Part shown: piece by piece, positions 15,251 to 62,853 of the stretch
How positions within the stretch are numbered: position 1 is the first letter of the stretch
How the letters are laid out: each line of letters starts with the position of its first letter
Assembly: GCF_009653635.1 (NCBI RefSeq)
Contig: NZ_PPFD01000009.1
Coordinates: 1-64,000, forward strand
Source of the DNA: Endozoicomonas sp. OPT23
GTDB taxonomy: Bacteria > Pseudomonadota > Gammaproteobacteria > Pseudomonadales > Endozoicomonadaceae
Reading direction: 5' to 3'
DNA length: 64,000 nucleotides
The notes under the pieces: generated by a model
What the model saw: the letters and a program-made list of their open reading frames with translations, nothing else
Told to the model about the DNA's origin: nothing
Databases searched by the model: none
Translations under genes and position numbers: made by a program

Positions 15251-15354
15251 GCTCGGGGTCTTGTGTGGTTCTGCCAAAGGACAAGGATGTCCGATGAGCG
15301 ACTCGATGCAGGAAAGCATCGGTGGAGCGGGCAGAGCCACACAAGATTCCGAGC
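15251..15354 (+). repeat. Three-way-junction element, copy A (possible structured RNA)
   Basis: The outer arms 15251-15275 and 15330-15354 pair over 25 positions; the only three non-Watson-Crick pairs are G.T wobbles on the + strand. Inside are two hairpins: GGACA-AGGA-TGTCC (15279-15292) and CGATGC-AGGAAA-GCATCG (15304-15321). The junction strands are CAAA, GATGAGCGACT and GTGGAGC. The first hairpin contains ACAAGGATGT, the preferred CsrA/RsmA-binding sequence. The element lies between hcp and hcr on the strand opposite to them. A second copy with different stem sequence is at 62763-62853. Confidence 0.8.
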
Positions 15355-15367
15355 GGGTTGAAGCGTA

Positions 15368-17023
15368 TCAGGCAGCAGTGTTCAAGATTGCGCCAAGATC
15401 CTGTTCAACCGTTGTCGTCAGCTTGAGATCAAACTGTTCAGTCAGCACACCCAGCAGATTCTCGGTCAGGAACGCTGGCGGAGTTGGGCCAGTGTGAATG
15501 TTCTTGATACCCAGAGACAGCAGGGTCAGCAAGATAACAATCGCCTTCTGCTCAAACCAGGACAGAATCAAAGACAATGGCAGATCATTCACACCACACT
15601 CAAACGCTTCAGCCAGAGCCAGAGCCAGCTGAATGGCAGAGTAAGCATCGTTGCACTGACCTACGTCCAGCAAACGAGGAATGCCGTTAATATCGCCAAA
15701 CTCCAGCTTGTTGAACTTGAACTTACCGCAAGCCAGCGTCAGGATCAGGCTGTCCTGTGGCACAGATTCAGCAAATTCCTTGAAGTAAGCACGTTCAGAC
15801 TTATCACCGTCACAACCACCGATCAGGAAGAAGTGCTTGATATCGCCAGCCTTAACACCTTCGATAACCGCTGGAGCCGCTTCCATCAAAGCATTACGGG
15901 CAAAACCGGTAAGGATAGTGTGTGGAATTTCGTCAAACTCAAAGCCTGGCAGTTCCAGTGCCTTGTTGATCAGAGCGTCAAAGCTTTCACCTTCCATGTG
16001 TTGAACACCAGGCCAGCCAACAATGTTACGGGTGAAAATACGGTCGCCGTAATCACCAACATTAGGATCGATGATGCAGTTAGAGGTCATCAGGATAGCG
16101 CCTGGGAATTCAGCAAATTCATGCTGCTGGTTCTGCCATGCGGAACCGTAGTTGCCGACCAGATGCTTGTGTTTTCTCAATTCAGGGTAACCGTGCGCAG
16201 GCAGCATCTCACCGTGGGTGTAGATGTTAATGCCTTTATCTTCAGTCTGTTCCAGCAGGTGTTGTAGATCGATCAGGTCGTGACCGGACACCAGAATCGC
16301 CTTACCTTTAACCGGCTTAACGTTTACCTGTGCAGGCGCAGGATGGCCGAACGCAGTCGTCTGACCACGGTCCAGCATCTCCATAATCTTGTAGTTCAGC
16401 TGACCAATCTGCATGGAACATTCCAGCAGCGCATTGATCTCAACAGAATCAGTGGCCAGCCAGGACATGATCTGGTGGAATTCAGCGTAAATGGCTTCAT
16501 CGGTCTCATGCAGGATGCGAGCGTGTTCCATGTACGCTGCAGCACCTTTCAAACCGTACAAGCAAAGCAAACGCAGACCAACAACGTCTTCACCGGCTTC
16601 TTCCTTACCGCGGTTAGGCAGCATGACCGGGGCCTGTTGCAGCATACCGGCCATATCTTCAGACAATTCGAAAGTAGCGGCAGGCGTGGCATCGGAGAAG
16701 TCGATACCTTTTTCAGCACAGGCTTTTTTCAGCAGATCACGGGCAGCGTTGGCTTCACGGATGAAAGCAACAATGCGGTCATTATCAAAGTTTACGTTGG
16801 TCAGTGTGGCGAAGAATGCACGCGGTACCAGCGCATCAACAGCGTCGTTTTTAATGCCCAGTTCACGAGCCTTGGTCGCATACCAGGAAACGCCCTGCAG
16901 CATGTAAATCAGAACGTCTTGCAGGTCAGAGGTCTCGGACGTTTTACCGCACATACCCTGAGCGTAGGAACAACCGTTACCGGCAGGAGTTCGAATGGTT
17001 TGCTCGCACTGAACACAGAACAT
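15368..17023 (-). CDS. hcp: Hybrid cluster protein Hcp (NO reductase / hydroxylamine reductase)
   Basis: The 551-residue protein begins [18 protein letters not shown], with the N-terminal CX2CX11CX6C cluster ligands of the enterobacterial-type enzyme. The hybrid-cluster part carries [11 protein letters not shown], the Cys in [30 protein letters not shown] and LDVGQCND, all cluster ligands or neighbours known from the family. Hcp is now regarded as a high-affinity NO reductase of anaerobic cells and also reduces hydroxylamine. With hcr it forms the expected two-gene operon. An NsrR-like box lies 18-40 bp upstream of the start codon. Confidence 0.97.
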
Positions 17024-17040
17024 TAATAACGCCTCATCTA

Positions 17041-17063
17041 AACATATATTTTTTTTGCATCTT
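17041..17063. promoter_or_regulatory. NsrR-like operator upstream of hcp
   Basis: The 23-bp sequence fits the NsrR palindrome AAGATGCATTT-N-AAATGCATCTT at 16 positions; the hcp-proximal half is degenerate, but TGCATCTT is perfect. A further half site AAGATGCAA is at 17158-17166. NsrR represses hcp in many gammaproteobacteria until NO damages its iron-sulfur cluster. Confidence 0.65.
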
Positions 17064-17240
17064 ATTTTTCGTACTTATTGGTCAGGCGTCCCCCTGACTC
17101 AATCTGAAAATGGTGATGCAGTTTGTACTGCCGCCATTCTTATTCAGAAGCACTTAAAGATGCAATTTTTTTACGTGTTTAATTATGCGACATACGACAT
17201 AGATCAAAAAATACGTAGATATGCTCAGATGAGCGATACT

Positions 17241-17332
17241 ACGTACCCAGACATACGAATTCATAAGCTGCTTGCCTGCCGCAGGCGGGCAAGCAGCCAT
17301 TTAATATTCGATTACGTGTGTCTACACACTTA
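17241..17332 (-). repeat. Dispersed repeat R1, copy 2
   Basis: On the - strand it reads TAAGTGTGTAGACACACG, TAATCGAATATTAAATGGCT, then a hairpin GCTGCTTGCCCGCC / GGCAGGCAAGCAGC, then TTATGAATTCGTATGTC and TGGGTACG. The ends match copy 1 nearly base for base, while the central hairpin is entirely different in its lower stem yet still pairs. It lies between hcp and a LysR gene. Confidence 0.85.
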
Positions 17333-17370
17333 CTTTTAGAGAACCTGCGAATAACAAATGTCAAATCCTT

Positions 17371-18261
17371 TCATGTTACTGCTTTACAGGTGTTTCTCAA
17401 TCGAGCTTGCACATAAGCCTGACACGATTGAATAAAAGCTTTCAGCACCGGATTTCCTTTATTATCTGGATGATAGAGCAGCCAGAGTTGCGTAGTGTCA
17501 CTCACCGTGTAGCTATCGTGTATATCCATACCTCTCACCACCGTATCGAGCCTCGGAACTACTCCGACCCCATAACCACCTTGCAAAGCATTCACCAGAG
17601 CGGCCATTGAATCAAAAGCAGTGCATGTATCATTTTTTTGCTTATGATTCTCCACCCACTGTCGACTCCAGTGCCTGTTGATAGCCCCTCCAGGAATCAG
17701 CCATTTTTGTCTGTCGCCCGATGATTTATAGTGTTTTGCACTGACAACCGCATATTGCAACTCTGCCAGGTAGTGGCCAATCATAGCATTCGGGGGCTGA
17801 TTGGTTGGACGCAATGCCAAATCTATGTTGCGCTCCCACAACTGTGCCTCATCGTTTCGCGTGTCGAAACTCAAGGAAACTTCCGGATATTCTGCACTGA
17901 AAACCTCTGAACAGGGCAGCAGCAGGTATTGAACCAGCAAATCTGTGGATGTAATCGTCAATTGACCACGAAGGGTCTGCTCATTATTCCGAAGTATCTG
18001 ATTGGCTATGCCGATCGCCTCCAGAATATGAGCCCCCTGTTGTGCAAGCATCCTTGTTACAGGCAATGCTGAATAACCATTTTGCGATCGATTAAAGAGA
18101 ACTATTCCCTGTTGCTTCTCAATACGTTTGATCGAACGAAAAACGGATGAGACATCCCGCCCTAATAGTCGACCTGCTGCTTCCAGAGTACCTGCTTCCA
18201 CCATGGCGTGAATAACAAGGAGATCTCTGCTTTCAAGCTCAATAGGCATTTGTGCATTCAT
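17371..18261 (-). CDS. LysR-family transcriptional regulator
   Basis: The N-terminal helix-turn-helix reads VEAGTLEAAGRLLGRDVSSV, then SIKRIEKQQGIVLFNRS, the classic LysR layout; the C-terminal part is the substrate-binding domain. I start at the ATG at 18261; the frame also opens at a GTG 24 bp upstream. The HTH is less standard than usual. It is divergent from the periplasmic cupin gene at 18346, which is a likely target since LysR proteins often control a divergent neighbour. The inducer is unknown. Confidence 0.85.
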   Translation of the reverse strand: MNAQMPIELESRDLLVIHAMVEAGTLEAAGRLLGRDVSSVFRSIKRIEKQQGIVLFNRSQNGYSALPVTRMLAQQGAHILEAIGIANQILRNNEQTLRGQLTITSTDLLVQYLLLPCSEVFSAEYPEVSLSFDTRNDEAQLWERNIDLALRPTNQPPNAMIGHYLAELQYAVVSAKHYKSSGDRQKWLIPGGAINRHWSRQWVENHKQKNDTCTAFDSMAALVNALQGGYGVGVVPRLDTVVRGMDIHDSYTVSDTTQLWLLYHPDNKGNPVLKAFIQSCQAYVQARLRNTCKAVT

Positions 18262-18345
18262 AGATTTCACGCCTGCAAATTCCACAAACTGTCATTATCG
18301 ATAAACTGTCTAACACGGATCACTATTAACAACCAGGAAGATTCC

Positions 18346-18777
18346 ATGAAACTGAATAAACTCTGTCAGGCACTGATTACCTCATCCATTCTGACCACAA
18401 CCACAGCTATGGCGCACACAACTGAAAACAAGATGCTCGCAACTAATGAAATTCAATGGCAGCAACTGGGTGAAACACCCATTGAATACGCTGTCATATG
18501 GGGAGACCGTGAAGCTGGTGCCAATGGTACATACTTAAAACTGCCTTCAGGTTTTGAAGTGGGAGTCCATGGCCATTCACACAATTACAACGGAGTCACT
18601 ATTCAGGGCGTCTGGGAGCATAAGTTTGAGGGCGAGTGGAAACAACTTCCTCCAGGGTCATACGTTTCTCAAAAGGGGGGCGAATTACACAATGACCGCT
18701 GCACCAGTAAAGAAGACTGCATACTACTGATCCAGCAAGACGACCACTCCGATGCATTTTTTCCACCAGCAAAATAA
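18346..18777 (+). CDS. Periplasmic cupin-domain protein (DUF4437-like)
   Basis: The ATG at 18346 follows a GGAAG ribosome-binding site and opens a signal peptide (LITSSILTTTTAMAHT, cleavage after AMA). The mature protein of about 120 residues is a small beta-barrel with cupin marks: YLKLPSGFEVGVHGHSHNYN, with closely spaced metal-binding histidines, and GSYVSQKGGELHND for the second cupin motif. Related exported cupins are often annotated DUF4437. Function is not established; binding of a small molecule or metal is likely. Two Cys (RCTSKEDC) could form a disulfide. A hairpin terminator follows. Confidence 0.75.
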   Translation: MKLNKLCQALITSSILTTTTAMAHTTENKMLATNEIQWQQLGETPIEYAVIWGDREAGANGTYLKLPSGFEVGVHGHSHNYNGVTIQGVWEHKFEGEWKQLPPGSYVSQKGGELHNDRCTSKEDCILLIQQDDHSDAFFPPAK

Positions 18778-18789
18778 TACTTCTCACGC

Positions 18790-18808
18790 GCTCCGGTGAA
18801 TTCGGAGC
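18790..18808 (+). terminator. Hairpin after the cupin gene
   Basis: GCTCCG (18790-18795) pairs with CGGAGC (18803-18808). There is no long T-run; it lies between convergent genes. Confidence 0.45.
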
Positions 18809-18836
18809 ACTGCTTCTCATATTCAATTGCCTGCGC

Positions 18837-19184
18837 CTATATACTTAACCCTGCATTGCCTGCAAACACTTCACTGTAGCGGATTACAACGTTCTGTGAA
18901 TCAATGAGTTGAAGCAATGACTGACTTCGCGGGTCAGCCAGAAATACTTTCAAGCCGCTTTCGGCGGCTTCACGATCGCGCCAGAAAACAGTTTCTGCCC
19001 AGAAGCCATCATCCTGCTGTGAACAGTAGCGGTGAATAAAGCCATCAATGTTATTAAGTACCGCATCGGTTATTTCAAGCGCATTGATAATCTCATAGTC
19101 CTGAATATCAGGGAGCGCTGGAAAAGTAACATATTCAATAATACCTGGCCTGGTCAAATCTGAAGCGTTGATATTGGATTTCAT
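18837..19184 (-). CDS. ABM-like (dimeric alpha-beta barrel) conserved protein
   Basis: The ATG at 19184 follows AGAGG and gives a 115-residue protein; the frame is open further upstream but that would overlap azoR. The pattern YVTFPALPDIQ, then IDGFIHRYCSQQDDGFWAETVFWRDREAAESGL fits the antibiotic-biosynthesis-monooxygenase-like fold, where a short enzyme or binding protein forms dimers. The Trp-Arg-Asp centre is typical. It lies 43 bp downstream of azoR, so the two are probably co-transcribed. Confidence 0.65.
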   Translation of the reverse strand: MKSNINASDLTRPGIIEYVTFPALPDIQDYEIINALEITDAVLNNIDGFIHRYCSQQDDGFWAETVFWRDREAAESGLKVFLADPRSQSLLQLIDSQNVVIRYSEVFAGNAGLSI

Positions 19185-19227
19185 TTGAATAAAGCCTCTT
19201 CTACTTAATGATTCGATGGGTAACAAG

Positions 19228-19866
19228 TTAAGAACGCAGTTTGATGCCCAGTTCTTTTGCTTTAAGCCGTGCAGCATTCAGAGAATACTGATGGCGATCA
19301 TCCGAAAATTCCTGATATTCCACATGAACTTCATGGGTTCTGGAAGCACCCAGATAACGTGACAGGGTTTGAATATGATTGTCCAAATGATTATGCATAG
19401 CGCGAGGACCTTCCGGACTAAAGCCAAACTCACCTTTAGACGTTAGCAAGACAAGTGTTTTATCATTAAGGAGAGGCTCTATCGGATAATCTCCTCGACT
19501 CAGATCGAATGAAAATGTTTTATCAACACGAATGATTTGATCAAACCAGGCCTTTAATGCAGCGGGCATACCATAGTTATACATAGGGGCACCAATAACA
19601 ATGATACTGGCATTCTTGAGCTCAGCGATAAGCCTTTCAGACTCGGCCAACCTGGCTTGCTGACTGGCAGATCGTTGTTGTGGCGAGGTAAATACTGCAT
19701 CAATCCATTGCTCATCAATAAATCCAGGAGGTTGCGCTCCCACATCACGATGAACTACATCGGTCTCTATATTGTCAGTCAGTTCGTTCAGCAGTGTATC
19801 AATAAGCTGACGTGTAATAGAACGCTGCTGTCGTGCACTACTGTTAATCACCAGAACGGAATTCAT
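19228..19866 (-). CDS. azoR: FMN-dependent NADH:quinone oxidoreductase / azoreductase
   Basis: The 212-residue flavodoxin-like protein has the AzoR phosphate-binding start VLVINSSARQQRSITRQL, the FMN-contacting segment GAPMYNYGMPAALKAWFDQI at residues 94-113, and LLTSKGEFGFSPEG. The enzyme transfers two electrons from NADH to quinones or azo compounds, protecting against thiol stress. It is followed by the ABM-like gene and preceded on the same strand by a LysR regulator. Confidence 0.9.
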   Translation of the reverse strand: MNSVLVINSSARQQRSITRQLIDTLLNELTDNIETDVVHRDVGAQPPGFIDEQWIDAVFTSPQQRSASQQARLAESERLIAELKNASIIVIGAPMYNYGMPAALKAWFDQIIRVDKTFSFDLSRGDYPIEPLLNDKTLVLLTSKGEFGFSPEGPRAMHNHLDNHIQTLSRYLGASRTHEVHVEYQEFSDDRHQYSLNAARLKAKELGIKLRS

Positions 19867-19973
19867 GAACCCACCTCATTACGGAATCATGTTCCATTCT
19901 ATTTATCCATTGTCATCTGGCAGCTGAATATTACTCATCATAGATGAGTTTAATTACTTTATAAATAATCCAG

Positions 19974-20873
19974 TCACAGCGGCACTACTGCCGAATCTGT
20001 TTGCAGCCAATGGATAAAATCGATCACCTTTCTGTGCTGAATACTCTCGGGTCGATAGATTATCTGATATCGACTACCGTCGACCTGAACCTCTGGCTGA
20101 TAGGCTTTCAATAAGTTACGGGTCAGAAAATCCTCCACCAGAACCGAGCTGGCCAGAGCTATACCCTTGCCTGCTACAGCAGCCTGCAACACATGTGACT
20201 CTTCTTTAAAACGAATAATATTATTAGTCATCCATTCGAACCGGGCTTTCTGTATCCAACTTGTCCAGTTGACTTCCTGAAGCACATTTTGCTGCCATTC
20301 CGTTTCAATGAGCGGCAATTCCCTAATCGCACTTCTGTCGAGAACCATCGAGGATGCCACGTAAGCACCAAATGTTTCCTGCAAAAAACATTCTCCGACA
20401 CCGCCCCTGGGCGTTTCACTTCCGTAACGTATAACCAGATCAATATGTCGGTTTCGCTGTAAATCCAGCGACTGAGTACTGGTATCGAGCTGCACACTGT
20501 ATTGTGGATATTTCTCATAAAAATCAATCAGTCGCGGCACCAGAAACAACGTAGCAAAGGAGGGTGTTGTCGACAGCGTGATGACCTGATTCCGAGCAGT
20601 AACAACATCAATAGCTTCGCTGATGTCACCAAAGGCACGGGTGATCGTGGGGGATAACGCCTTACCTGCGTCTGTCAGATAAATACTGCGTATACGACGG
20701 GTGAATAAAGCTGTCTGAAGCTGCTCTTCCAGGGTTTTAATCTGGTGTGAAATAGCTGTTGGTGTGACGTGAAGTTCTTCAGCAGCTGCTTTGAAACTGC
20801 CTAGCCTGGCAGCAGCTTCAAAAGCCTTCAACGCAACGAGAGAAGGAAGACGAGGACTCATAACAAAATCCAT
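19974..20873 (-). CDS. LysR-family regulator (GcvA-like)
   Basis: The 299-residue protein has the GcvA-type start PSLVALKAFEAAARLGSFKA, then AAEELHVTPTAISHQIKTLE, and a LysR substrate-binding domain (LSTTPSFATLFLVPRLIDF). The true start could be Met5. It is upstream of azoR on the same strand (107 bp gap) and divergent from the SGNH hydrolase gene, so either or both may be its targets. Confidence 0.9.
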   Translation of the reverse strand: MDFVMSPRLPSLVALKAFEAAARLGSFKAAAEELHVTPTAISHQIKTLEEQLQTALFTRRIRSIYLTDAGKALSPTITRAFGDISEAIDVVTARNQVITLSTTPSFATLFLVPRLIDFYEKYPQYSVQLDTSTQSLDLQRNRHIDLVIRYGSETPRGGVGECFLQETFGAYVASSMVLDRSAIRELPLIETEWQQNVLQEVNWTSWIQKARFEWMTNNIIRFKEESHVLQAAVAGKGIALASSVLVEDFLTRNLLKAYQPEVQVDGSRYQIIYRPESIQHRKVIDFIHWLQTDSAVVPL

Positions 20874-20962
20874 AAAGATGAATAGATGTTACTTATAAAT
20901 GAGAGAAATTCTTTTGTAAACAAGCTGACAGCTCATCACAATACAGCCTGAAATTAACTGAG

Positions 20963-21811
20963 GTGAAGACGTTGACTCGTACCATTCGAAAACATGAAAG
21001 TGTCCATGTATTTGTGTCGTTTATTACGATCCTTATTTTCAGTATTTTTACGACACCACTTTATGCGAACACTACTTCAGACAGAGAACGTACTGATCGG
21101 CAATGCTGGCACGAAAACAAGCAACAGGTACTAGTGTTTGGTGATTCAAACACATGGGGCTGGAAACCTGTCGCCGAAGGCTTTCCGGCACGACGGTATG
21201 CAAAATATGAGCGATGGACCAGCATTCTGGAGTCGACGCTCAACAACCAGCACCCTGCTTCTGTTATCGCTGACGGGTTAATCAGTCGCACTATTAATCT
21301 GGATGCAGGGCAGGCCGTCGGTGAGTTAACGAAAGAAGCATTCAACGGCTCCCGGGATATAGTCAACTCAATGGCAAAGCATGCACCACTGGACTGGATT
21401 GTTATCATGCTCGGAACCAATGACCTTGCTCCATCATACGAACGTTCTCCCAAGGAAATAGCTGAGGCAGCCTTCGCTTTGGCAGAAAAAGCACGCCAAC
21501 AAGACAACATTTTGTATTCAGCCTATCGTGCTCCCCAAGTGCTGCTGATTGTTCCGCCACCTATTGGTTCAACAGTGAATACACCGCTGCACGGTATATT
21601 CGATGGTGCCCAGACACCATCGAAGCAAATAGCAGCTGCTTTTCTAAAAGAAGCTGATAAACATACAGATATTCACTTATTGGATGCAGGTCAGATTATT
21701 ACCACTGATGGTATTGATGGTGTGCACTTCTCACGACAGAACCATATTACTTTAGGTAAAGCTGTCGCTCGCTTCCTGCTTCGTAAAGATTCGAGTTGCA
21801 ACCAAGCCTGA
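20963..21811 (+). CDS. Secreted SGNH/GDSL hydrolase (arylesterase-like)
   Basis: A GTG at 20963 or the TTG at 20972 (with AGGTG upstream) starts the gene; the hydrophobic segment VSFITILIFSIFTTPLYA serves as signal peptide or anchor. SGNH blocks are present: block I VLVFGDSNTWGW with the nucleophilic Ser, block II Gly in VIADGLISRT, block III VIMLGTNDLAP, and block V DGVHFSRQNH with the catalytic Asp and His. These enzymes hydrolyse esters, from aryl esters to lipid or glycan acetyl groups. Length (282) is normal for the exported type. Confidence 0.88.
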   Translation: MKTLTRTIRKHESVHVFVSFITILIFSIFTTPLYANTTSDRERTDRQCWHENKQQVLVFGDSNTWGWKPVAEGFPARRYAKYERWTSILESTLNNQHPASVIADGLISRTINLDAGQAVGELTKEAFNGSRDIVNSMAKHAPLDWIVIMLGTNDLAPSYERSPKEIAEAAFALAEKARQQDNILYSAYRAPQVLLIVPPPIGSTVNTPLHGIFDGAQTPSKQIAAAFLKEADKHTDIHLLDAGQIITTDGIDGVHFSRQNHITLGKAVARFLLRKDSSCNQA

Positions 21812-21838
21812 TTCTTAATGAAGATGTTATAACCTCAA

Positions 21839-21902
21839 AGCCTGCGAATGCAGGCAGCACTCTCCTCAGAGAGGCAGAAAACAACGGCTGTTTCTTCTGT
21901 TC
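21839..21902. terminator. Three consecutive short hairpins between convergent genes
   Basis: GCCTGCGAATGCAGGC, CTCTCCTCAGAGAG and AGAAAACAACGGCTGTTTCT each fold on themselves. Together they fill the gap between the hydrolase and the DUF1971 gene; no classic T-run is present. Confidence 0.4.
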
Positions 21903-21927
21903 TGCGCATTAATACAATGAATCGACA

Positions 21928-22263
21928 TTATTTTGTATAAAACATTGGCTCGTCTTTCTTGTCAGTAGATGACCAGAAGTTAATATTGAACTGGGCATCG
22001 TCACTGATTTCAATACGGTGCCAGTATTGAGGTGGGCTGGTAGCGAACTGTCCCGCATTAATAACTACCGTCACCTCCGGCTCCAGGGTTTCACTGTCGG
22101 GAAAACCAAAGTAAGTAACAGTACCTTCCATCACGCAGAGCTGGCCGAATACGCCTTCGGCCGTATTGTGATGAGTGAGCAGTGCATCCGGCACATTACC
22201 CTTGGTAAAAAAGGGTGTGGAACGCTGAATGGTCCAGTCTGCAGGAATACGGAAATGGCTCAT
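21928..22263 (-). CDS. DUF1971 (TehB N-domain-like) cupin protein
   Basis: The 111-residue protein fits the DUF1971 cupin found alone or fused to TehB-type methyltransferases: TIQRSTPFFTKGNVPDALLT, HHNTAEGVFGQLCVMEGTVT, and QFATSPPQYWHRIE near residue 75. Here it follows a SAM methyltransferase gene by 54 bp on the same strand, so the two-domain arrangement appears as two genes. It ends the operon that begins with norV, suggesting nitric-oxide-inducible expression. Confidence 0.8.
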   Translation of the reverse strand: MSHFRIPADWTIQRSTPFFTKGNVPDALLTHHNTAEGVFGQLCVMEGTVTYFGFPDSETLEPEVTVVINAGQFATSPPQYWHRIEISDDAQFNINFWSSTDKKDEPMFYTK

Positions 22264-22317
22264 ACGGTTAACCTCCGGGCGATGAACGCCCTTAATAAAT
22301 ACTGAACGATTAATGCT

Positions 22318-22872
22318 CTATGCTTGACGAAACTTTAAAACATAGTGGGATGGACAGGACTCTCTGTCGCTGAATGTAATCTCGAATCCGGCCTGTCGAA
22401 CCTCACTGACCACTCGATCAAAACCGACTCTGGCGTGCTCACTGTCAAGGTCGACAAAGACAAACTCGGTGTCTTTGTCAGCTTGTTGATAAAGATGGTT
22501 CAAGAATAGATCTCGCTGTTCAATAAAGCGGTAAACATTTGCCAGAAATACAACATCAACAGCATCCGGCAGGCAGGGTTTCAGGGCATCTGTCAGCCTG
22601 GCTTCAACATTTCCCTTACACTCAGCTTCAAATCGCTGCACCATATGACTAACCATATTGGGTTCGCAGTCCAGCGCATAAACCTTGTCTGCGGTTTCTG
22701 CAAACAGGCTACTAAAATACCCGGTGCCAGCACCCAGATCCGCAATAACGGTGTCGTTTTTCAATGCCAGACAGTTAAGAATGTAGTTGGTGTTCTGCCA
22801 TTCCTGCCGAGTCTCTGAATCAAAGATCTCCGTGAGCCTTTCCGGCTCTGCAAAGCTGATACGTTGCTGCAT
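22318..22872 (-). CDS. Class I SAM-dependent methyltransferase in the nor operon
   Basis: The 184-residue protein has motif I VIADLGAGTGYFSSLF (residues about 44-59), an acidic residue at the end of strand 2 (VYALDCEPNM), and motif IV VDVVFLANVYRF. It starts 3 bp after norW ends, so it is translationally linked to norVW. The N-terminal segment RLTEIFDSETRQEWQNTNYI resembles methyltransferases annotated for arsenite or thiol substrates; the substrate is not known. Its position behind the NorR-activated promoter is the main clue, implying a role in repair or detoxification during NO stress. Confidence 0.85.
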   Translation of the reverse strand: MQQRISFAEPERLTEIFDSETRQEWQNTNYILNCLALKNDTVIADLGAGTGYFSSLFAETADKVYALDCEPNMVSHMVQRFEAECKGNVEARLTDALKPCLPDAVDVVFLANVYRFIEQRDLFLNHLYQQADKDTEFVFVDLDSEHARVGFDRVVSEVRQAGFEITFSDRESCPSHYVLKFRQA

Positions 22873-22875
22873 GGC

Positions 22876-55233: not shown

Positions 55234-55277
55234 CCCTTGATAGTTATGATCATAACAAAAAACATAACCATCAAGGG
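55234..55277. terminator. Nested hairpin after tatD
   Basis: CCCTTGATAGTTATG (55234-55248) pairs with CATAACCATCAAGGG (55263-55277) with one mismatch. The perfect palindrome GTTATGATCATAAC (55243-55256) lies within the same stretch, so two alternative folds are possible. It follows the tatD stop codon by 9 bp. Confidence 0.7.
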
Positions 55278-55285
55278 ATAAGGGT

Positions 55286-56065
55286 TTATCGCAGAGCTTT
55301 CGGGAACAAGCGGTAGAAGTTTGCCGTTGTGGCTTCCGCCAGTTCAGCCACAGTTACACCCTTAAGCCCCGCCACACATCGTGCGACATCCGGCAAGTAC
55401 TTGGGTTCATTAGGCTTGCCACGATTTGGGACTGGCGCAAGATAAGGAGAATCCGTTTCAATCAGCAATCGATCTAAGGGAATATTTTTAACCACTTCCC
55501 GAAGCTCACTGGCATTTCTGAAGGTCACGATACCGGAAATAGAGATCATATAGTTCATCTCCATGACTGCCTGAGCCATTTCCAGACTTTCGGTGAAACA
55601 GTGCAGTACGCCTGCTCTATCCAGATCACCATGCTGCCTGATCAGATCAAGCGTATCTTCACGGGCATCACGGGTATGAACAATAATCGGCAGTTGAGAC
55701 TGAGCGGCGGCCTGAAGGTGGATGCGAAAACGCTCCCGCTGTACTTCCTTATTATCAGCGGAGTAATAGTAGTCGAGACCACTTTCACCAATGGCCACCA
55801 CTTTTTCATGCTTTGCATATTTCAGCAGGGTTTCCAGATCAGGTTCAGCAGCGTCTTTCTCCAGCGGGTGAATACCTACTGATGCAAAAACATCTTGATA
55901 TTTCTCGGCAATACCGACCACCTGGTCAGCGTGTTCCAGATCAATGCCAACACAGAGGATTTTGTCAACGCCCGCCTCTTTTGCGGCAGCTACCGCCTTA
56001 TCCAGATCACCATCATAGGTATCCAGTTTAAGGCGGTCGATATGGCAGTGAGAATCTATCAACAT
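55286..56065 (-). CDS. tatD: TatD-family metal-dependent hydrolase/DNase
   Basis: The ATG at 56065 opens MLIDSHCHIDRLKL with the HxH metal site. Later ASVGIHPLEKD, AIGESGLDYYYS, PIIVHTRDA, LHCFTESLEMA and IETDSPYLAPVPNRGKPNEP give the remaining metal ligands and the C-terminal signature. It is close to YcfH-type members. In related genomes this gene follows pilZ directly; here two extra genes intervene. Confidence 0.95.
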   Translation of the reverse strand: MLIDSHCHIDRLKLDTYDGDLDKAVAAAKEAGVDKILCVGIDLEHADQVVGIAEKYQDVFASVGIHPLEKDAAEPDLETLLKYAKHEKVVAIGESGLDYYYSADNKEVQRERFRIHLQAAAQSQLPIIVHTRDAREDTLDLIRQHGDLDRAGVLHCFTESLEMAQAVMEMNYMISISGIVTFRNASELREVVKNIPLDRLLIETDSPYLAPVPNRGKPNEPKYLPDVARCVAGLKGVTVAELAEATTANFYRLFPKALR

Positions 56066-56275
56066 GAATCCTTCAAATATCAATCAAAAACAAGCGCGAC
56101 ATAATAAAGTATAAACCGCTTAAATTAGAAACCTCATTTTTGACATTAGCCACGCCTCACAGAACAACCGCCTCTGATACCAAACCACCTCTGGTGAAAC
56201 CTTCCTCTCAACCGATAACACTGATGTCACATGGTCCTGCTTAGTATCAAACAATATCTTCAGGAAATACTCGCT

Positions 56276-57541
56276 ATGGCTATCAACCGACGTCAACTCT
56301 TACAAAGCAGTTCTTCATTTTTAGCCTTAGGAGCTCTTGGTTCATTGACAGGATGCCGCACCGGAAACTTCTTCAAGCCTCTCAGGCAAGATACCAATAA
56401 TATTCTCGATTTACCCGAAGGCTTTACATACAAGGTTCTTCAAACCTGCAATGACAGAATGTCTGATGGCTATATGGTACCCGGCAGCCCGGACGGCATG
56501 GCTTCATTTCTGGACGACAAAGGCAATATCGTTCTAATGAGAAACCATGAACTGGATCAGTGGAACTCAAAAAACAGTCCAACATTAACCACTACAACAA
56601 AAGAGCTATTGTATGACCCAGCTAGCTATGGCTGCGTTAGTCGCCTCGTTATTCGCCCGGACAATCTGAAAGTATTAAGCAGCAATCTGGTTTTAGCGGG
56701 TACAACCAGAAACTGCGCCGGCGGTCCATCACCCTGGGGGTGGATCTCCTGTGAAGAAAGTACCGACAAAGGGCATGGTTACGCTTTTCTCTGCGACTAT
56801 CGCGCTTCCAAATTATCTCCTCCTAAAAAATTGACCAATCTGGGGCGATTTTATCGTGAAGCTTTTGCTTTTGATCCTCGTACCGGCATCAGCTATATGA
56901 CCGAAGACAGAGATGACAGCTGCTTTTATAGATACTTGCCAGCAGACAGGTCTACTCCCTTTGGCTTTGGCCAGCTTCAAGCCATGGCCATTTCTGAACA
57001 ACCTAAATTCAGTACCAGCAGAAATATCAGAGCCAATACCAACTACAGTATTCATTGGGTCGATATTGATGAACCCAATTCAATGGATGATACCTGCAGG
57101 CTACAAGGTCAACAAAAAGGCGCAGCTCTTATCCACAGAGGAGAAGGTTTATGGTTTCATAATGGAGTCATATATTTTTCTGCTACAGAGGGCGGACAAC
57201 TAGAAAAAGGACAAATATTTCAACTCACCGATTTAAACAAGCCTACCAACCAATTAAAGCTTGTACATGAATCAGGCAGACTTTCTTCTATCGCATTTCC
57301 TGACAATATTGCCGTCGCCCCATGGGGAGACCTGGTTATCTCAGAAGATGGCCGAAAAACAGACTACATAAGTTTGATTAACAACAAAGGACAGGTTTTC
57401 AATCTGGCCAGAAATAGATTGTCTCATAGCGAAATCACAGGAGTGAATTTTTCCCCCGATGGAAGAATATTATTCCTTAATTTGCAAGAGGACGGCCTGA
57501 CCATAGCCATCACCGGACCTTTCCAGATGCTCACATCCTGA
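56276..57541 (+). CDS. PhoX-family (DUF839) exported lipoprotein phosphatase-like protein
   Basis: The ATG at 56276 follows AGGAAAT. The N-terminus has a twin-arginine motif (INRRQLLQSS), a hydrophobic core and a lipobox (SLTGC), so it may be exported by Tat and lipidated. GSPDGMASFLDDKGNIVLM, LMRNHELD, PSPWGWISCEES and EDGRKTDYISL resemble PhoX phosphatases, in which acidic residues bind calcium and iron. The gene is opposite in orientation to its neighbours and interrupts the conserved pilZ-tatD linkage. Confidence 0.75.
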   Translation: MAINRRQLLQSSSSFLALGALGSLTGCRTGNFFKPLRQDTNNILDLPEGFTYKVLQTCNDRMSDGYMVPGSPDGMASFLDDKGNIVLMRNHELDQWNSKNSPTLTTTTKELLYDPASYGCVSRLVIRPDNLKVLSSNLVLAGTTRNCAGGPSPWGWISCEESTDKGHGYAFLCDYRASKLSPPKKLTNLGRFYREAFAFDPRTGISYMTEDRDDSCFYRYLPADRSTPFGFGQLQAMAISEQPKFSTSRNIRANTNYSIHWVDIDEPNSMDDTCRLQGQQKGAALIHRGEGLWFHNGVIYFSATEGGQLEKGQIFQLTDLNKPTNQLKLVHESGRLSSIAFPDNIAVAPWGDLVISEDGRKTDYISLINNKGQVFNLARNRLSHSEITGVNFSPDGRILFLNLQEDGLTIAITGPFQMLTS

Positions 57542-57599
57542 TTATAAGGCTATGCGACATAAAGCCGCCGCATAGCCTTTAACCTTCTGAAGTTACAAG

Positions 57600-58592
57600 C
57601 TAAACCATAACCCCCAGATCATTTTCACCAACCAAACCCTGTTTCAAAACCTCAACAGGCTCAACCACCTTGCAGAGTTTATCTCGCGCAAACTTCGCCG
57701 TATTCCAGAGAGCAAATCCCGGCCCAACCATGAAGGCTCCTGCCAACGTTAACCCCACCATTGCATTAACAACTGCAAAAGAAGCACTGTTATAGCAACA
57801 ACCATAAAAGGGGGTGCGCAAGTAATCATCTAACAAGGCAGCACCAAAACCACCTCCAACCAACAAGGTCAAACCTCTCACACAGCCTTTGGACATCTCC
57901 TTTACAAACTTGTAAGAAATAGCCAGTGCAGGCGTCAGATTTTCCAGATAGTTATCAAACTTCCTCACTCTGGCTGCTACACGGTCATACAGGCTCAAAG
58001 CCTTAGCCAGAACAGGTCGTTTTTTAGCTCCATCCAGATCAACAACATACCGGACTGAATTAACAACAGCTTTGGTCAGCCCTATCCCTGCCCCTGCTAC
58101 CAAGCCACCTATAACTAGAGGCAGAATTAATGGCTCCATCGCCACACCAACAGTCAGCATACCTGCAACCCACACCCCTAACCCCGTACAACCGCCTTTC
58201 ACAGCTGCAGCCAGTGGGTGCACAGCAAACTGAAATATCGTATGAGCTGTCTTTGCCAGAATTGGATTACGAGTTTCAATATACCGTTTTGCGCAATCTA
58301 CTTTATGGCCCACACGGTCACGTAAAGCAGCAACGCCTTGAGTTAAAACAACAACGCCCTGACGAGTTGTTTCAACTGCCCTTATCAGGTAACAACCAGC
58401 CTTCTTTAATCGCTGTACAGCAACCGGATGCTCACCCGCAAACTTCAACATCTTTCCTTGAGCCTTTTGTTTAAGAGCGGAAACCTTCCGTCGACCCTGC
58501 CTCAACAGCTCACTAGCCGACTGACCGACACCGGCAACGGCTTCAAAAACCTCTCTCGAACTGCCATGCAGAGCAGGTATAGATATAGCCAT
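57600..58592 (-). CDS. Glycine-rich membrane protein of unknown function
   Basis: The ATG at 58592 follows GGGAGG and gives 330 residues. Hydrophobic glycine-rich segments (VWVAGMLTVGVAMEPLILPL, VIGGLVAGAGIGLTKAVV, LTLLVGGGFGAALLDDYL, VVNAMVGLTLAGAFMVGPGF) suggest membrane insertion with flexible helices. The N-terminal third is basic and helical. No known domain. It follows pilZ on the same strand after about 190 bp that include a terminator. Confidence 0.65.
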   Translation of the reverse strand: MAISIPALHGSSREVFEAVAGVGQSASELLRQGRRKVSALKQKAQGKMLKFAGEHPVAVQRLKKAGCYLIRAVETTRQGVVVLTQGVAALRDRVGHKVDCAKRYIETRNPILAKTAHTIFQFAVHPLAAAVKGGCTGLGVWVAGMLTVGVAMEPLILPLVIGGLVAGAGIGLTKAVVNSVRYVVDLDGAKKRPVLAKALSLYDRVAARVRKFDNYLENLTPALAISYKFVKEMSKGCVRGLTLLVGGGFGAALLDDYLRTPFYGCCYNSASFAVVNAMVGLTLAGAFMVGPGFALWNTAKFARDKLCKVVEPVEVLKQGLVGENDLGVMV

Positions 58593-58722
58593 AACACCTA
58601 CCTCCCTGTGTATTTGGGACAGCATAAGGGATAGCATTCAGCGATTGCATGACAGCAGCGTTAGCAGGAATAACAAGATTAATTAAAGGAGGATGACTAT
58701 AGAAAGAGGTCTAACAAAAGAG

Positions 58723-58750
58723 CCAGCCAGAATCGTTCGATACTGGCTGG
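58723..58750 (-). terminator. Hairpin after pilZ
   Basis: CCAGCCAG pairs with CTGGCTGG around a 12-nt loop, 35 bp after the pilZ stop. No clear T-run; likely end of the fabF-pilZ operon. Confidence 0.6.
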
Positions 58751-58784
58751 GAACATAGCTATATGAAATAGCCACATGAAATAA

Positions 58785-59123
58785 CTACATGGTACTGGTT
58801 TCTCTATCCGACTTAAGCGCACCCGCCAGATAGGTTTCAATCTTGGTGCGAACTGTATCGGTCGGATCCGTAAATTGAACACCAATACCCGCCATACGGG
58901 ACGAACCCTGAGGGGTAATCCAGACCACCTTGCCCGGTACCGGCAATTTATCCGCTTCATCCATCAGAGTCAGACGGATAAAGACTTCATCACCCAGATT
59001 GTATTCACGGGAAGTCGGTATAAACAATCCGCCGCCATTAATAAAGGGCATATAGGATGAGTAAAGCGAAGATGAGTCCTTGATTGTCAGTGACAGAATG
59101 CCTGACATCCCTCCTCTGGCCAT
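58785..59123 (-). CDS. pilZ: PilZ-domain protein (type IV pilus assembly factor PilZ)
   Basis: The 112-residue protein has the PilZ arrangement: GMSGILSLTIKDSSSLYSSY, INGGGLFIPTSREYNLGDEV with the N/GGG turn, VPGKVVWITPQ and GIGVQFTDPTD. The Arg-rich c-di-GMP loop is not conserved, as in the stand-alone PilZ that acts in pilus assembly without binding the nucleotide. It is the last gene of the operon with holB. Confidence 0.92.
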   Translation of the reverse strand: MARGGMSGILSLTIKDSSSLYSSYMPFINGGGLFIPTSREYNLGDEVFIRLTLMDEADKLPVPGKVVWITPQGSSRMAGIGVQFTDPTDTVRTKIETYLAGALKSDRETSTM

Positions 59124-59199
59124 ATTAACTCTCCTTTTATTTGGAATTCATAGTTTAAAAGTAAAAACTCAACACTAGAGCGCTATTTTAAAGCTCTTT

Positions 59200-60192
59200 T
59201 TAAAGCACTAACTCTAGGTATCGACTGAAAGCACCTTCCATCAACATCTGACCGTTGAGGTTACCGCCTTCCAGTAAAGACTGACGCTGCTTGATCAACC
59301 AGTCTCTCTCTTCAAGAATAGCCCTGCCAGATACCTTGGTGGCAATATAACGGAGCATCTTGGCCTGATCGGTATTTCGAATATCTGACTCAGCCACACC
59401 CTGCTCGAGCCGGACAGAATCTTCCAGCCAACTGATCAGCCAGGCGAGAGTCAACACCAGATCACTTTTCTGCCAGTCTTTCGCCAGCTCAACCGGAGCC
59501 ATAGCGCCCTTGAACAAACCTTTCACACAATGGGCCAGCTCAAGACGCTTCTCCAGCAGACCTTCATCAGCAAAACGCTTTGCCTCCAGTGGTGCATCCC
59601 CTGTCTGGTCCAGCAACATAGCGACCTGATCAGCATGATTATCGAGATGACGGGTAAGCCACTGCTCTGCAGAAGGCCGATCAGGCGTGCTGAATTTCAA
59701 CTGCTGACAGCGACTCCGAATGGTTGGCAACATATCACCGGCACGGGCACTGACCAGCAGAAACACGGTGTTTTCACCGGGCTCTTCGAGACACTTCAAC
59801 AGAGCATTAGAGGCATTGATGTTCATCGCTTCCGCCGGATTGATCACAATCACTCGGCGACCACCCTGCTGAGCCGTTTTGTGTGCAAACTCATTAAGCT
59901 GGCGAATCCGGTCAATACGAATAGGACGACCGGGATCATCAGGCTCAACAATAGCAATATCCGGATGGGACCCCGCTTTCAGCAGGTCACATTCTTTACA
60001 GAAGCCACAGGCCTGATCATTAACCGGAGACTTACAAAGCAGGTAGGCAGCAAAAGCTTTGGCAAACTGTACCTTGCCAACACCCGGCATTCCGCGAAGC
60101 AGATAAGCATGAGCCAGATTATCGGTCTGATGACAATGTACCAGCTGCTGCCAGAGTGACGATTGCCAAGGTAAAGGCTGCCAGGCCTGCAT
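59200..60192 (-). CDS. holB: DNA polymerase III delta' subunit HolB
   Basis: The 330-residue protein is an AAA+ clamp-loader subunit: YLLRGMPGVGKVQFAKAFAA, the zinc-binding CKSPVNDQACGFCKECDLL (four Cys), SHPDIAIVEPDD, and ASNALLKCLEEPGENTVFLL. The start overlaps the tmk stop at 60192, so the two are translationally coupled. Confidence 0.96.
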   Translation of the reverse strand: MQAWQPLPWQSSLWQQLVHCHQTDNLAHAYLLRGMPGVGKVQFAKAFAAYLLCKSPVNDQACGFCKECDLLKAGSHPDIAIVEPDDPGRPIRIDRIRQLNEFAHKTAQQGGRRVIVINPAEAMNINASNALLKCLEEPGENTVFLLVSARAGDMLPTIRSRCQQLKFSTPDRPSAEQWLTRHLDNHADQVAMLLDQTGDAPLEAKRFADEGLLEKRLELAHCVKGLFKGAMAPVELAKDWQKSDLVLTLAWLISWLEDSVRLEQGVAESDIRNTDQAKMLRYIATKVSGRAILEERDWLIKQRQSLLEGGNLNGQMLMEGAFSRYLELVL

Positions 60193-60833
60193 CAGATGCG
60201 CCCCTTTATTCGAGATGCCAGTCGGCGATCCAGCACCGATAGAATTTGTTGTTTGACATTATCCAGGGATCCTCCGGCATGAATGACTTCGTATTGCTCA
60301 GAAAAGACTTTGGAACGATTCAGATACTCTTCCCGAACCCGCTCAAAGAAATCCATTTTTTCCTGCTCGATACGATCCAGTTCGCCACGACCACGGGCAC
60401 GTGCCATACCGACTTCAGGATCAACATCCATCAAAATCGTCATATCCGGGCGACGACTGCCCTGAACAAGGTTTTCCAGCGTTGAAATCTGCTGTTGATC
60501 CAGACCACGACCACCGCCCTGATAGGCATAGGTTGCATCGGTAAATCGATCGCAAATAACTACCTTACCCGCTGTCATGCCCGGTTCAATATTATGAAAC
60601 AGGTTCTGCGAACGAGCGGCAAACATCAGCAACAACTCTGTGGTGTCCGACAAAGCTTCGCCGTGATGACTTAATAACAGGCTGCGAATATCCTCAGCCA
60701 CCCGTGTACCACCAGGCTCACGAGTTTCAGTGAACTCAATGCCTTTTTCAGACATCCACTCTTTAATCAGGTTAACCGCCGTACTTTTACCGGCACCTTC
60801 ACAACCTTCGATCGTCAGAAAAAAACCTGACAT
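60192..60833 (-). CDS. tmk: Thymidylate kinase
   Basis: The 213-residue protein has the P-loop FLTIEGCEGAGKSTAVNLI, the DRFTDATYAYQGGGRGLDQQ lid-adjacent motif and TREPGGTRVAEDIR. It makes dTDP from dTMP and ATP. It overlaps holB and sits 1 bp from mltG. Confidence 0.98.
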   Translation of the reverse strand: MSGFFLTIEGCEGAGKSTAVNLIKEWMSEKGIEFTETREPGGTRVAEDIRSLLLSHHGEALSDTTELLLMFAARSQNLFHNIEPGMTAGKVVICDRFTDATYAYQGGGRGLDQQQISTLENLVQGSRRPDMTILMDVDPEVGMARARGRGELDRIEQEKMDFFERVREEYLNRSKVFSEQYEVIHAGGSLDNVKQQILSVLDRRLASRIKGRI

Positions 60834-61892
60834 TTACTGATTCTCCACTGGCGCACTCTGAGATGAACGATAGTCAGAGCGACGCTGATAAATCTGATAC
60901 TTCCTCACCGCCCGGTTATGTTCCACCAGACTGTTAGAGAAGTAATGGGTACCGTCCCCTTTGGCAACAAAATAAAGGGACTTGCCATCCTTGGGGTGCA
61001 ATGCTGCATTAATGGCTTCACGACCGACAAAAGCAATAGGCGTCGGTGGCAATCCTTTCAACATATAGGTGTTATAGGGCGTCTTCTCTCTCAGCATACG
61101 CCGAGTCAGGTTACCTTTATAGTTTTCACCCTGACCATAAATTACTGCAGGGTCGGTTTGCAGGCGCATGCCTTTCTGCAGACGACGAACAAATACACCA
61201 GCAATCTCGGGGCGCTCATAAGTAACACCCGTCTCTTTCTCTATAAGCGACGCCATTACCAAAGCTTCATACGCACTTTTATAGGGAAGATCTTTTGCCC
61301 GGTTCTGCCACTCTTCAGCCAACACCTCTTTCATTCGCTCCCTGGAACGAATCAGAATAGAGGTCACAGTATCCCCCGAATGGAAAAAGAACGTGTCAGG
61401 ATAAAACAGACCTTCCGGATTCCCTGCAATACCCAGCTCTTTCAATAAAGTCTGAAAGGCTTTCTGATCAAGAGGCTCACTGAGCTTTTCCTGACTATTG
61501 AGCTCTTCCAAAGCCTCCATGAGAGCCTGACCTTCAATCAACGATACTTCAAAAGAACGAACCTGACCTTCAGTAAACAGCTGCAACAACTCTCGATGCG
61601 TGACACCGGCAGGAATCAGGTACTCACCCGCCTTGATTCTAACCGCTACCTTTTCCAACCGCGCCAACACCTCTAGAAACTCGGGAGTTTCCAGCCAACC
61701 TTCGCTGGACAGGCGAGCAGCTACCCGTTTCATGGAATCACCCGTCTCTATGGTGAACTCCAGACTCTTCACGCCTTCCGGTGCTTCAACTGGCTGATTA
61801 CCAAAATCATCCATCAGCTTCCAGGCCACACCTACGGCAATCGCCAGCAACAGCATGCCAGCAATAGCGGCCAGCAGTATCTTCTTAAGCAT
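60834..61892 (-). CDS. mltG: Endolytic murein transglycosylase MltG
   Basis: The 352-residue protein has one N-terminal transmembrane helix, a LysM-like region, and the YceG catalytic part with ALVMASLIEKETGVTYERP (catalytic Glu), PAVIYGQG, TPYNTYMLKGLPPTPIAFVG and LYFVAKGDGTHYFSN. It cleaves nascent peptidoglycan and limits glycan length. It overlaps pabC by 8 bp. Confidence 0.97.
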   Translation of the reverse strand: MLKKILLAAIAGMLLLAIAVGVAWKLMDDFGNQPVEAPEGVKSLEFTIETGDSMKRVAARLSSEGWLETPEFLEVLARLEKVAVRIKAGEYLIPAGVTHRELLQLFTEGQVRSFEVSLIEGQALMEALEELNSQEKLSEPLDQKAFQTLLKELGIAGNPEGLFYPDTFFFHSGDTVTSILIRSRERMKEVLAEEWQNRAKDLPYKSAYEALVMASLIEKETGVTYERPEIAGVFVRRLQKGMRLQTDPAVIYGQGENYKGNLTRRMLREKTPYNTYMLKGLPPTPIAFVGREAINAALHPKDGKSLYFVAKGDGTHYFSNSLVEHNRAVRKYQIYQRRSDYRSSQSAPVENQ

Positions 61893-62715
61893 TTATTACT
61901 TCCATTAACTTATCCCTGACCCTGCAGGTCACCTCCCCTACAGCCCAGCTTTTATTTCCACAGCCGGTAACAGGCCAGACACCATTAACACTGTTACAGA
62001 CAAACACTTCATCCGCTGCAGCTAATTCAGCAAACGAATAGTCAGCCGTTTCTATTTTCAAACCCCAGAGCGCTGCATTATCCAGAATATATTCCCGACA
62101 AACACCCTTAACACCACAACGGCTCAAATGCGGTGTTTTTAAAATACCATTCTGAACAAAAAACAGATTCGACATGGTACCTTCAATAATGTGACCGTCA
62201 AAATCCTGCACCAACCCTTCAAGGCAACCTGCTTCAGCAGCCCATTCGCGGCGAGCCATTACATTCTCAAGACGATTCAAGTGTTTCATACCCACCAGCA
62301 CTGATTGCCCCAAACGGGTTTCACAAGGAAACAGTCGTATACCTTGTTCTCTCGGAGCAACACCATAATCAGGCAAGTCATGAAAAGACAATATTCGACT
62401 GGAATCACTGCAACCCGCTGGATTATACCCACGACCACCTGAGCCACGGGTAAGAATAACTTTCAGAATACCGCCGGGTTGATTTACAGCCTGCAAAAAA
62501 CCAGCAACCTCAGTCTTCAGCTGTTTAACAGATAAATCTATTCCCAGAAAAGAAGCGCTCTCTGCCAGCCGAGTCAGGTGCAGATCATAAAGCGTTGGTA
62601 AACCATTCACGACTCGAATGGTTTCAAACAAGCCATCCCCATAAGCCAGACCGCGATCTGTTACCGGCAGGACAGACTCATTTACACCATTTACCCAGAC
62701 AGGATAACCAGACAT
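61885..62715 (-). CDS. pabC: Aminodeoxychorismate lyase PabC
   Basis: The 276-residue PLP enzyme of fold type IV shows LPVTDRGLAYGDGLFETIRV, the Schiff-base Lys in MKHLNRLENVMARREWAAEA, the NLFFVQNG loop and VFVCNSVNGVWPVTGCG. It releases pyruvate from 4-amino-4-deoxychorismate to make p-aminobenzoate. The leader upstream is occupied by a structured element. Confidence 0.95.
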   Translation of the reverse strand: MSGYPVWVNGVNESVLPVTDRGLAYGDGLFETIRVVNGLPTLYDLHLTRLAESASFLGIDLSVKQLKTEVAGFLQAVNQPGGILKVILTRGSGGRGYNPAGCSDSSRILSFHDLPDYGVAPREQGIRLFPCETRLGQSVLVGMKHLNRLENVMARREWAAEAGCLEGLVQDFDGHIIEGTMSNLFFVQNGILKTPHLSRCGVKGVCREYILDNAALWGLKIETADYSFAELAAADEVFVCNSVNGVWPVTGCGNKSWAVGEVTCRVRDKLMEVINA

Positions 62716-62762
62716 CAAACCTTCCAGAAATCAGCAGTTTTCGAGAGAACCTGAAGAAGGTT

Positions 62763-62853
62763 GAGACAAGGTTACTCTTTCAAAGACCATGGATGGTCTG
62801 CTAGCGAGTCTGACCACGGAGGGTCAGCCGAGCGGAAAGAGTAATCTTGTTTC
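62763..62853 (+). repeat. Three-way-junction element, copy B (possible structured RNA)
   Basis: The outer arms 62763-62781 and 62835-62853 pair over 19 positions; the two non-Watson-Crick pairs are G.T wobbles on the + strand. Inside are AGACC-ATGGAT-GGTCT (about 62784-62799) and CTGACC-ACGGAG-GGTCAG (62810-62827). The junction strands CAA(A), GCTAGCGAGT and CCGAGCGG resemble those of copy A, while the stems are different sequences that still pair. It lies between fabF and pabC, opposite to their direction. Confidence 0.8.

Follow-up and report, generated by a model that had tools for sequence, protein, structure and literature searches.

Two three-armed elements with GGA hairpin loops in Endozoicomonas sp. 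OPT23 are linked by covariance model to TwoAYGGAY, a dispersed multi-copy repeat

The first 64,000 nucleotides of contig NZ_PPFD01000009.1 from Endozoicomonas sp. OPT23 (the window, meaning the whole stretch analysed) contain two copies, A and B, of a three-armed element with GGA in its hairpin loops. Copy A (15251..15354, + strand) has a 25-bp outer stem, with its 5' arm at 15251..15275 and its 3' arm at 15330..15354, which encloses a three-way junction and two GGA hairpins. Hairpin 1 (15279..15292) presents the hexaloop AAGGAT, of the type ANGGAX on a closing C-G pair, over a GGAC/GTCC stem, and hairpin 2 (15298..15328) presents an AGGAAA loop over a stem with a covarying pair, tandem G.A and a GC/GC base. 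Copy B (62759..62857, + strand) has a 23-bp outer stem (arms at 62759..62781 and 62835..62857), the loop ATGGAT over a GACC/GGTC stem in hairpin 1 (62785..62798) and an ACGGAG loop in hairpin 2 (62804..62833). Each copy is antisense to both of its neighbouring genes, all on the − strand. Copy A has on its 5' side an oxidoreductase gene (14163..15221), whose product best matches the NCBIfam models for glycine betaine monooxygenase reductase and NADH oxidoreductase, both below cut-offs, and on its 3' side the stop codon of a hydroxylamine reductase gene (15368..17023), which ends 13 nt away. Likewise, copy B has on its 5' side the aminodeoxychorismate lyase gene pabC (61885..62718) and on its 3' side, at 14 nt, the stop codon of a beta-ketoacyl-ACP synthase II (fabF type) gene (62872..63951).

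The arms of copy A are 88% Watson-Crick complementary over 25 nt and the RNA fold pairs all 25 positions, so that the other three outer pairs are G.U; those of copy B are 87% complementary over 23 nt. Folded as + strand RNA over the intervals of the preliminary description, copy A reached −67.5 kcal/mol (z −10.5) and copy B −45.0 kcal/mol (z −6.2), with none of 200 shuffles as good for either copy. The − strand folds were weaker (−56.3 and −35.4 kcal/mol), yet far better than those of their own shuffles (z −9.2 and −5.4). The outer stem and two hairpins around a three-way junction that had been read from the letters alone were thus recovered in both copies, with GGA in both loops of each, and the CsrA/RsmA-type sequence ACAAGGATGT lies inside hairpin 1 of copy A as described. 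The 25 outer pairs of copy A stand, although the outer stem of copy B has 23 pairs and not 19. The strands AGCGA and GAGCGG are also present, but they are not free junction strands, since together they form the base of hairpin 2, through GC/GC, tandem G.A and one pair that covaries. The strict ANGGAX hexaloop on C-G is found in hairpin 1 of both copies and in hairpin 2 of copy B, while the AGGAAA loop of copy A lacks the N.

Searches of the 4.94-Mb genome revealed further copies. A short sequence pattern was found at eight places, against one for the reversed pattern used as a control, and a DNA search retrieved five matches here, five in one species of the same genus (two of 18 genomes with a match, this one counted) and none in the other ca. 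16 relatives. A covariance model, R1, built on 13 aligned copies from two genomes, identified 25 copies in this genome (E ≤ 0.01), and a model from 11 copies that excluded those of the window found in the window exactly copies A and B (91.6 and 89.4 bits). In the plain MAFFT alignment of the 13 copies, from which the structure itself was chosen, 96.7% of cells pair, 21 of the 30 pairs show two-sided changes and 102 cells are compensated on both sides; none of 500 shuffles reached the observed values on any of five measures, and sliding the partner by 1–3 columns cut pairing to 41% or less. For 87 distinct copies from the family Endozoicomonadaceae (counted among 89 matches, with one match each in genomes G038 and G042 left out), two-sided changes were seen at 27 of the 30 pairs, and 94.6% of cells were paired versus at most 39.9% when slid, in an alignment fitted to the covariance model, so that these counts lean to the structure. 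The stems therefore covary, as supposed from two copies, and further copies carry compensatory changes; together, these results confirm that copies A and B genuinely belong to a dispersed family of three-armed elements.

Within the clade of this genome the element spans ca. 100 nt around a conserved AAA / TAGCGA / GAGCGG core, and tandem G.A occurs in all 13 copies of the first alignment. At the tandem G.A positions, L044, L046, L060 and other copies, from other genera, have complementary letters instead. Hairpin 1 is extended by a similar inserted stem-loop in L041:1501-1602 and L085:3953-4053, which are different loci of two species. Twelve of the 25 copies of this genome lie on one 550-kb contig (C26), clustered at about 184–413 kb, where six of the eight neighbouring proteins scanned match known families, several below cut-offs (thiolase, enoyl-CoA hydratase, FabK-like, HsaC-like dioxygenase, oxopentenoate hydratase and acetaldehyde dehydrogenase); these matches suggest a putative role of the neighbours in ring or steroid catabolism.

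Model R1 matched nine of the 37 Endozoicomonadaceae genomes, this one among them, with 89 matches in total and, under stricter filters, at least 12 of 293 genomes across the order. When ten loci were submitted to Rfam, three passed the 43-bit threshold of RF01731, the TwoAYGGAY family (54.2, 46.5 and 45.9 bits); these three (L109, L108 and L111) come from other families of the order and had been found by R1. Copies of the present genome scored 34.7 (L018) and 36.1 bits, under the cut-off, and six loci (L025, L026, L036, L112, L116 and L119), which include copies A and B as well as three loci that R1 had found in another genus, gave no RF01731 match at E ≤ 1. The window as a whole had no Rfam match at the gathering threshold, and its five weak matches at E ≤ 5 lie elsewhere, none on copy A or B. 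Because the window copies themselves do not match RF01731, their membership is by linkage through R1, and this model linkage places them in an Endozoicomonadaceae clade that is a divergent branch of the TwoAYGGAY elements. Since relatives pass the RF01731 threshold, the kind of structured RNA was already known, and the earlier suggestion of a new one has to be dropped. In one genus of the order (L112-L116 and L119-L121), the outer stems reach ca. 30 bp and the junction is slightly different.

With RF01731 as the query, at least 45 of 293 genomes of the order had matches, at least 24 of them above the cut-off, as had at least 22 of 350 genomes of the class, at least 13 above the cut-off (this genome included in both), and none of 14 well-known control genomes. 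Deeper searches of this type retrieved at least 69, at least 41 and at least 43 matches (E ≤ 0.05) in three genomes; copy numbers are lower bounds, because the wide searches scored 7–15 candidates per genome and the deep ones up to 150. G277 is a genome of a different family of the order; of ten copies retrieved from it, seven appear identical along the element, and in both G277 and G127 the element is embedded in a longer conserved stretch. These results show that TwoAYGGAY is a dispersed, multi-copy repeat. In G277 (e.g. L171:1350-1800) it lies within a conserved, dispersed repeat of some 350–450 alignment columns, with further palindromic sequence on its 3' side, and a pattern scan of named genomes returned four records, all from Sansalvadorimonas (now Parendozoicomonas) verongulae, of the Endozoicomonadaceae. 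In 2010, TwoAYGGAY was catalogued among probable RNAs without a cis-regulatory role (PMC2864571); in 2014, attention was drawn to its tandem G.A and its CsrA-like loops, and CsrA binding was proposed (PMC4333381). The available sections of four papers on TwoAYGGAY (PMC4333381, PMC2864571, PMC11701678 and PMC11661157) do not describe it as a repeat, nor do they contain the Endozoicomonadaceae clade, the placement beside genes or the site-by-site evolution; among the papers listed by literature searches on repeats with CsrA, or in this bacterial group, none concerned the element. What the present analysis adds is the repeat nature of TwoAYGGAY, this clade and the placement near stop codons, with antisense commoner than sense.

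A dispersed repeat of this type might be selfish DNA, similar to the repetitive extragenic palindromic (REP) sequences, that folds as a single strand during replication and is read by an enzyme acting in trans, in which case the loops would serve that enzyme and not CsrA. We consider this possible, though doubtful. The number and dispersal of the copies, both in this genome and in the three searched deeply, agree with it, as do the look-alike copies of G277 and the longer conserved stretches around the element. Among the matches listed, 21 of 28 close pairs are inverted with their 5' ends facing (hand tally), and there is a bias to one replication strand in G277 (48/69) and in G127 (35/41, with the origin side set after seeing the copies and a skew that is weak between 0.3 and 1.6 Mb). 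No such bias was seen, however, among the 40 of 43 matches listed for G069, and none is clear on contig C26, where GC skew is mixed; as a general rule, a replication-strand bias was thus rejected, and it does not serve as main evidence. Against a REP-like origin, too, the alignment of the flanks of the 25 copies of this genome shows no GT(A/G)G head, and no Y1 (PF01797) transposase was matched in this genome despite its 25 copies. Of the 37 family genomes, 33 have such a transposase. A REP-associated tyrosine transposase (RAYT) was rejected for this genome, which has no Y1 match. Genomes of the same genus carry 1 to 76 Y1 (IS200-type) transposases. Inverted pairs with facing 5' ends, ca. 60–75 bp apart, recur in unrelated gene contexts of three genomes, at L031:1501-1733 (this genome), L075:7286-7532 (G042) and L076:6669-6904 (G038).

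Comparison with the sister species (G001) indicates how the element ages. Nine of its ten copies are at the same places as copies here, those of copies A and B included. At these nine shared sites the core is 90% identical, the two arms 66 and 65%, and the 40-nt flanks 70 and 67% (5' and 3'); at non-matching sites, the core is 79% and arms and flanks are 57–59% identical. In the outer stem there are 36 double and 8 single changes that keep the pair, and 18 with the pair missing in at least one species, whereas in the inner helices 112 pairs are unchanged and three changes keep the pair. Because the core stays at 90% while the arms diverge like the flanks and yet remain mostly paired, the core is probably held by its sequence and the arms mainly by complementarity. 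Such position-shared copies would be unexpected for inert debris, which speaks against the REP-like alternative.

Element-free sites, which the REP-like alternative would also accommodate, do exist. Two copies of this genome have empty counterparts in G001, and the place of copy B lacks the element in eight of ten genomes of the genus, so that copies were gained, or lost, within the genus. A miniature inverted-repeat transposable element would have terminal inverted repeats of constant sequence and target duplications; the arms of the present element differ in sequence from copy to copy, and at the two element-free sites aligned, one of them poorly, no clear target duplication is readable. The idea of a small mobile element is partly borne out by the dispersed, patchy distribution and the element-free sites, but nine of the ten sister copies are old and position-shared. 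In L153:12685-12815, compared with L018, the element-free site keeps a short GATGT/ACATC hairpin at the position of the outer-stem base, which may be a deletion scar or a palindromic target.

The outer stem also indicates which strand folds. Over the 87 family copies it holds 70 G.U and 24 A.C cells (binomial p = 2e-6), and 15 and 6 in this genome alone, so that in the outer stem the + strand is the wobble-tolerant one, as RNA or as single-stranded DNA. The proposal that the + strand is the folding strand is thus borne out in the outer stem and not in the inner helices. Since G.T wobble in DNA would give the same signal, the G.U excess does not decide between RNA and DNA, nor for or against the REP-like alternative.

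Most copies lie just after genes: with genes taken as the longest open frames, no gene finder being used, and distances counted from where the 85-position match to the model stops, not from the stem end, a stop codon lies within 100 nt of 75 of the 87 copies. It belongs to the antisense gene on the 3' side in 59 copies and to the sense gene on the 5' side in 28, some having both. By gene context, 41 copies are antisense co-directional, the class of both window copies, whose + strand is, as had been noted, opposite to the neighbouring genes; 18 are sense co-directional, 20 convergent and 3 divergent, and 5 have one side uncalled. Pooled, the excess of antisense over sense (41 vs 18) has p = 0.004. 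Divergent genes flank only 3 of the 82 copies for which both neighbours were called, which would also suit REP-like repeats; the copies of such repeats might, as a doubtful possibility, persist after stop codons as the least harmful place.

The same proximity to stop codons, together with very stable folds on both strands, could point to a 3'-end role in the sense mRNA, where a long hairpin past the stop codon would end or stabilise the transcript of the upstream gene. We hold this to be unlikely. The wobble bias of the outer stem favours the antisense strand (70 vs 24), the conserved loops would read UCC in the sense mRNA, and we know of no reader of UCC loops. A T-rich tail follows on the sense side in only 6 of the 87 copies and on the + side in none, and on these counts an intrinsic terminator was rejected. 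A site just past stop codons, with a conserved fold of variable stem and one folding strand, would also be expected for recombination sites that fold like the attC sites of integrons, an option that we find scarcely credible. The boxes of attC sites read RYYYAAC..GTTRRRY, whereas the arms here have the reverse polarity (consensus GGTT..AACC), on which ground the attC site was rejected; moreover, the core is a three-way junction and the copies are single or paired, scattered beside diverse chromosomal genes.

Conservation of the loops bears on what might read the element. Of the 87 copies, 81 keep GGA in hairpin 1, 84 in hairpin 2 and 79 in both; the 25 copies of this genome all keep it in both. 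Loop 1 measures 5–7 nt in 82 copies and loop 2 measures 4–7 nt in all 87, and the closing pair is C-G in 84 (hairpin 1) and 85 (hairpin 2), while most other stem pairs covary. The N and X positions of the loops vary, whereas A, GGA and the closing C-G rarely change, and in 68 of the 87 copies both hairpins carry a looser A(N)GGA loop closed by C-G. The available text of PMC4005645 describes the high-affinity RsmE site as a hexaloop, ANGGAX, that sits immediately on a stem and, in the solved example, is closed by C-G. The most constant letters of the element, A(N)GGA on C-G, thus coincide with the published set of RsmE/CsrA determinants, and the loops look like CsrA docking sites; from these letters we infer that CsrA, which is encoded in all 37 family genomes, would bind the element.

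Two such hairpins in each of 25 copies might suggest a family of trans-acting sponge small RNAs (sRNAs), CsrB- or RsmZ-like and with their own promoters. This appears very improbable, because no promoter-like consensus (no promoter scan was run) or terminator tail was found around the copies and, at shared sites, conservation of the 5' flank barely exceeds that of the 3' flank (70% vs 67%). Of the sponge-like activity proposed in the preliminary description, the CsrA-type loop is therefore supported by conservation and the free sponge sRNA is not. Since many copies lie antisense after stop codons and the flanks lack a promoter-like consensus, we favour a local, antisense or convergent role.

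Our preferred reading, to which we give a probability of roughly 0.43, is that of a formerly mobile element of the TwoAYGGAY clade that is kept by selection on its fold and whose + strand RNA would act as a two-site CsrA-binding module, locally and in antisense. Some mobility mechanism would have spread the TwoAYGGAY family, after which selection on the fold would keep the copies in place, as the shared sites suggest. Once the + strand is transcribed, the long variable stem would close the three-way junction and present the two hairpins with A(N)GGA on C-G. A CsrA dimer might then bridge both loops of one junction, matching its two binding faces, as the invariant letters lead us to think. The module would be carried by stray or convergent + strand transcripts and would act locally, in antisense, while in the sense mRNA the hairpin loops would be UCC and should go unread by CsrA; the bias towards antisense might reflect selection against a strong CsrA site inside the mRNA.

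Several observations weigh against this reading, besides the missing RF01731 matches of six loci and the absence of weak Rfam matches at copies A and B reported above. The inner helices have few wobble cells, 8 G.U and 14 A.C, which do not favour the + strand, and at the shared sites nine single changes in these helices leave one species unpaired, although some may be misalignments; single copies of the sister species have also lost a GGA. Paired double changes could arise without selection by template switching in palindromes, which makes the evidence for selection strong without being exclusive. Only pooling makes the antisense excess clear (taken separately, it is 15 vs 4 in this genome, p = 0.02, and 26 vs 14 in the other genomes, p = 0.08). 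Of the 87 copies, no more than 48 have the strict ANGGAX hexaloop in hairpin 1 and no more than 26 in hairpin 2, and tandem G.A is kept, in the alignment rows listed, in only 54, many of the others having complementary letters there. The 28 family genomes that gave no match encode CsrA as well, so that its presence does not explain the distribution of the element. Finally, the 50 nt on the 5' side of the 25 copies of this genome show no position-specific promoter-like consensus, no promoter scan having been run, and no copy among the 87 has a T-rich tail on the + side.

A bolder version of the preferred reading, which we consider rather unlikely, would see TwoAYGGAY as a mobile, structured repeat with a patchy distribution across Gammaproteobacteria, which seeds genomes with two-site CsrA modules that selection then keeps at gene ends, where they buffer or tether the CsrA pool. 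If true, a selfish element would have turned into a distributed post-transcriptional regulator, with tens of scattered copies per genome. In any case, an orphan motif listed since 2010 is a dispersed repeat that recurs in inverted pairs and, in several Gammaproteobacteria, has tens of matches in a genome. This repeat nature shifts the sensible hypotheses to repeat biology, antisense position and titration of CsrA by dose, and the CsrA proposal becomes directly testable with existing data from RNA-seq and from crosslinking and immunoprecipitation. Likewise, a core that stays conserved while the arms diverge and yet mostly remain paired gives the appearance of a dispersed repeat whose structure is maintained in place.

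Among known systems, the R0-R200 repeats of Pseudomonas fluorescens are also intergenic, with a bias to tail-to-tail gene pairs, and their 320–352 bp families R200 and R26 could resemble the long repeats that hold TwoAYGGAY in G277; the available part of their description, on which alone the comparison is based, mentions no three-armed fold (PMC2718517). The element is also like REP sequences, bacterial interspersed mosaic elements (BIMEs) and their RAYTs, as far as the available text presents them, in being a short, structured intergenic repeat that forms inverted pairs (PMC2817692). Unlike REPs and BIMEs, it has a branched fold, a freely varying stem sequence, no GT(A/G)G head and no Y1 match in this genome. 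CsrB, CsrC, RsmX, RsmY and RsmZ are each encoded by one gene that has a promoter of its own, and each offers several binding sites. The element differs from the CsrB/RsmZ sponges in its many scattered two-hairpin copies without a promoter-like consensus, and shares with CsrB, CsrC, RsmX, RsmY and RsmZ, according to the available sections of PMC4333381 and PMC4005645, the paired hairpin loops with A(N)GGA. In Alcanivorax, the CsrA-related sRNAs correspond to two separate genes in the accessible portion of PMC9788540. The closest likeness is to TwoAYGGAY, with which the window copies share the outer stem, two hairpins with A-Y-GGA-type loops and tandem G.A in one stem, whereas their clade is set apart by looser loops (such as AGGAA and AGGGAT) and by its AAA / TAGCGA / GAGCGG core.

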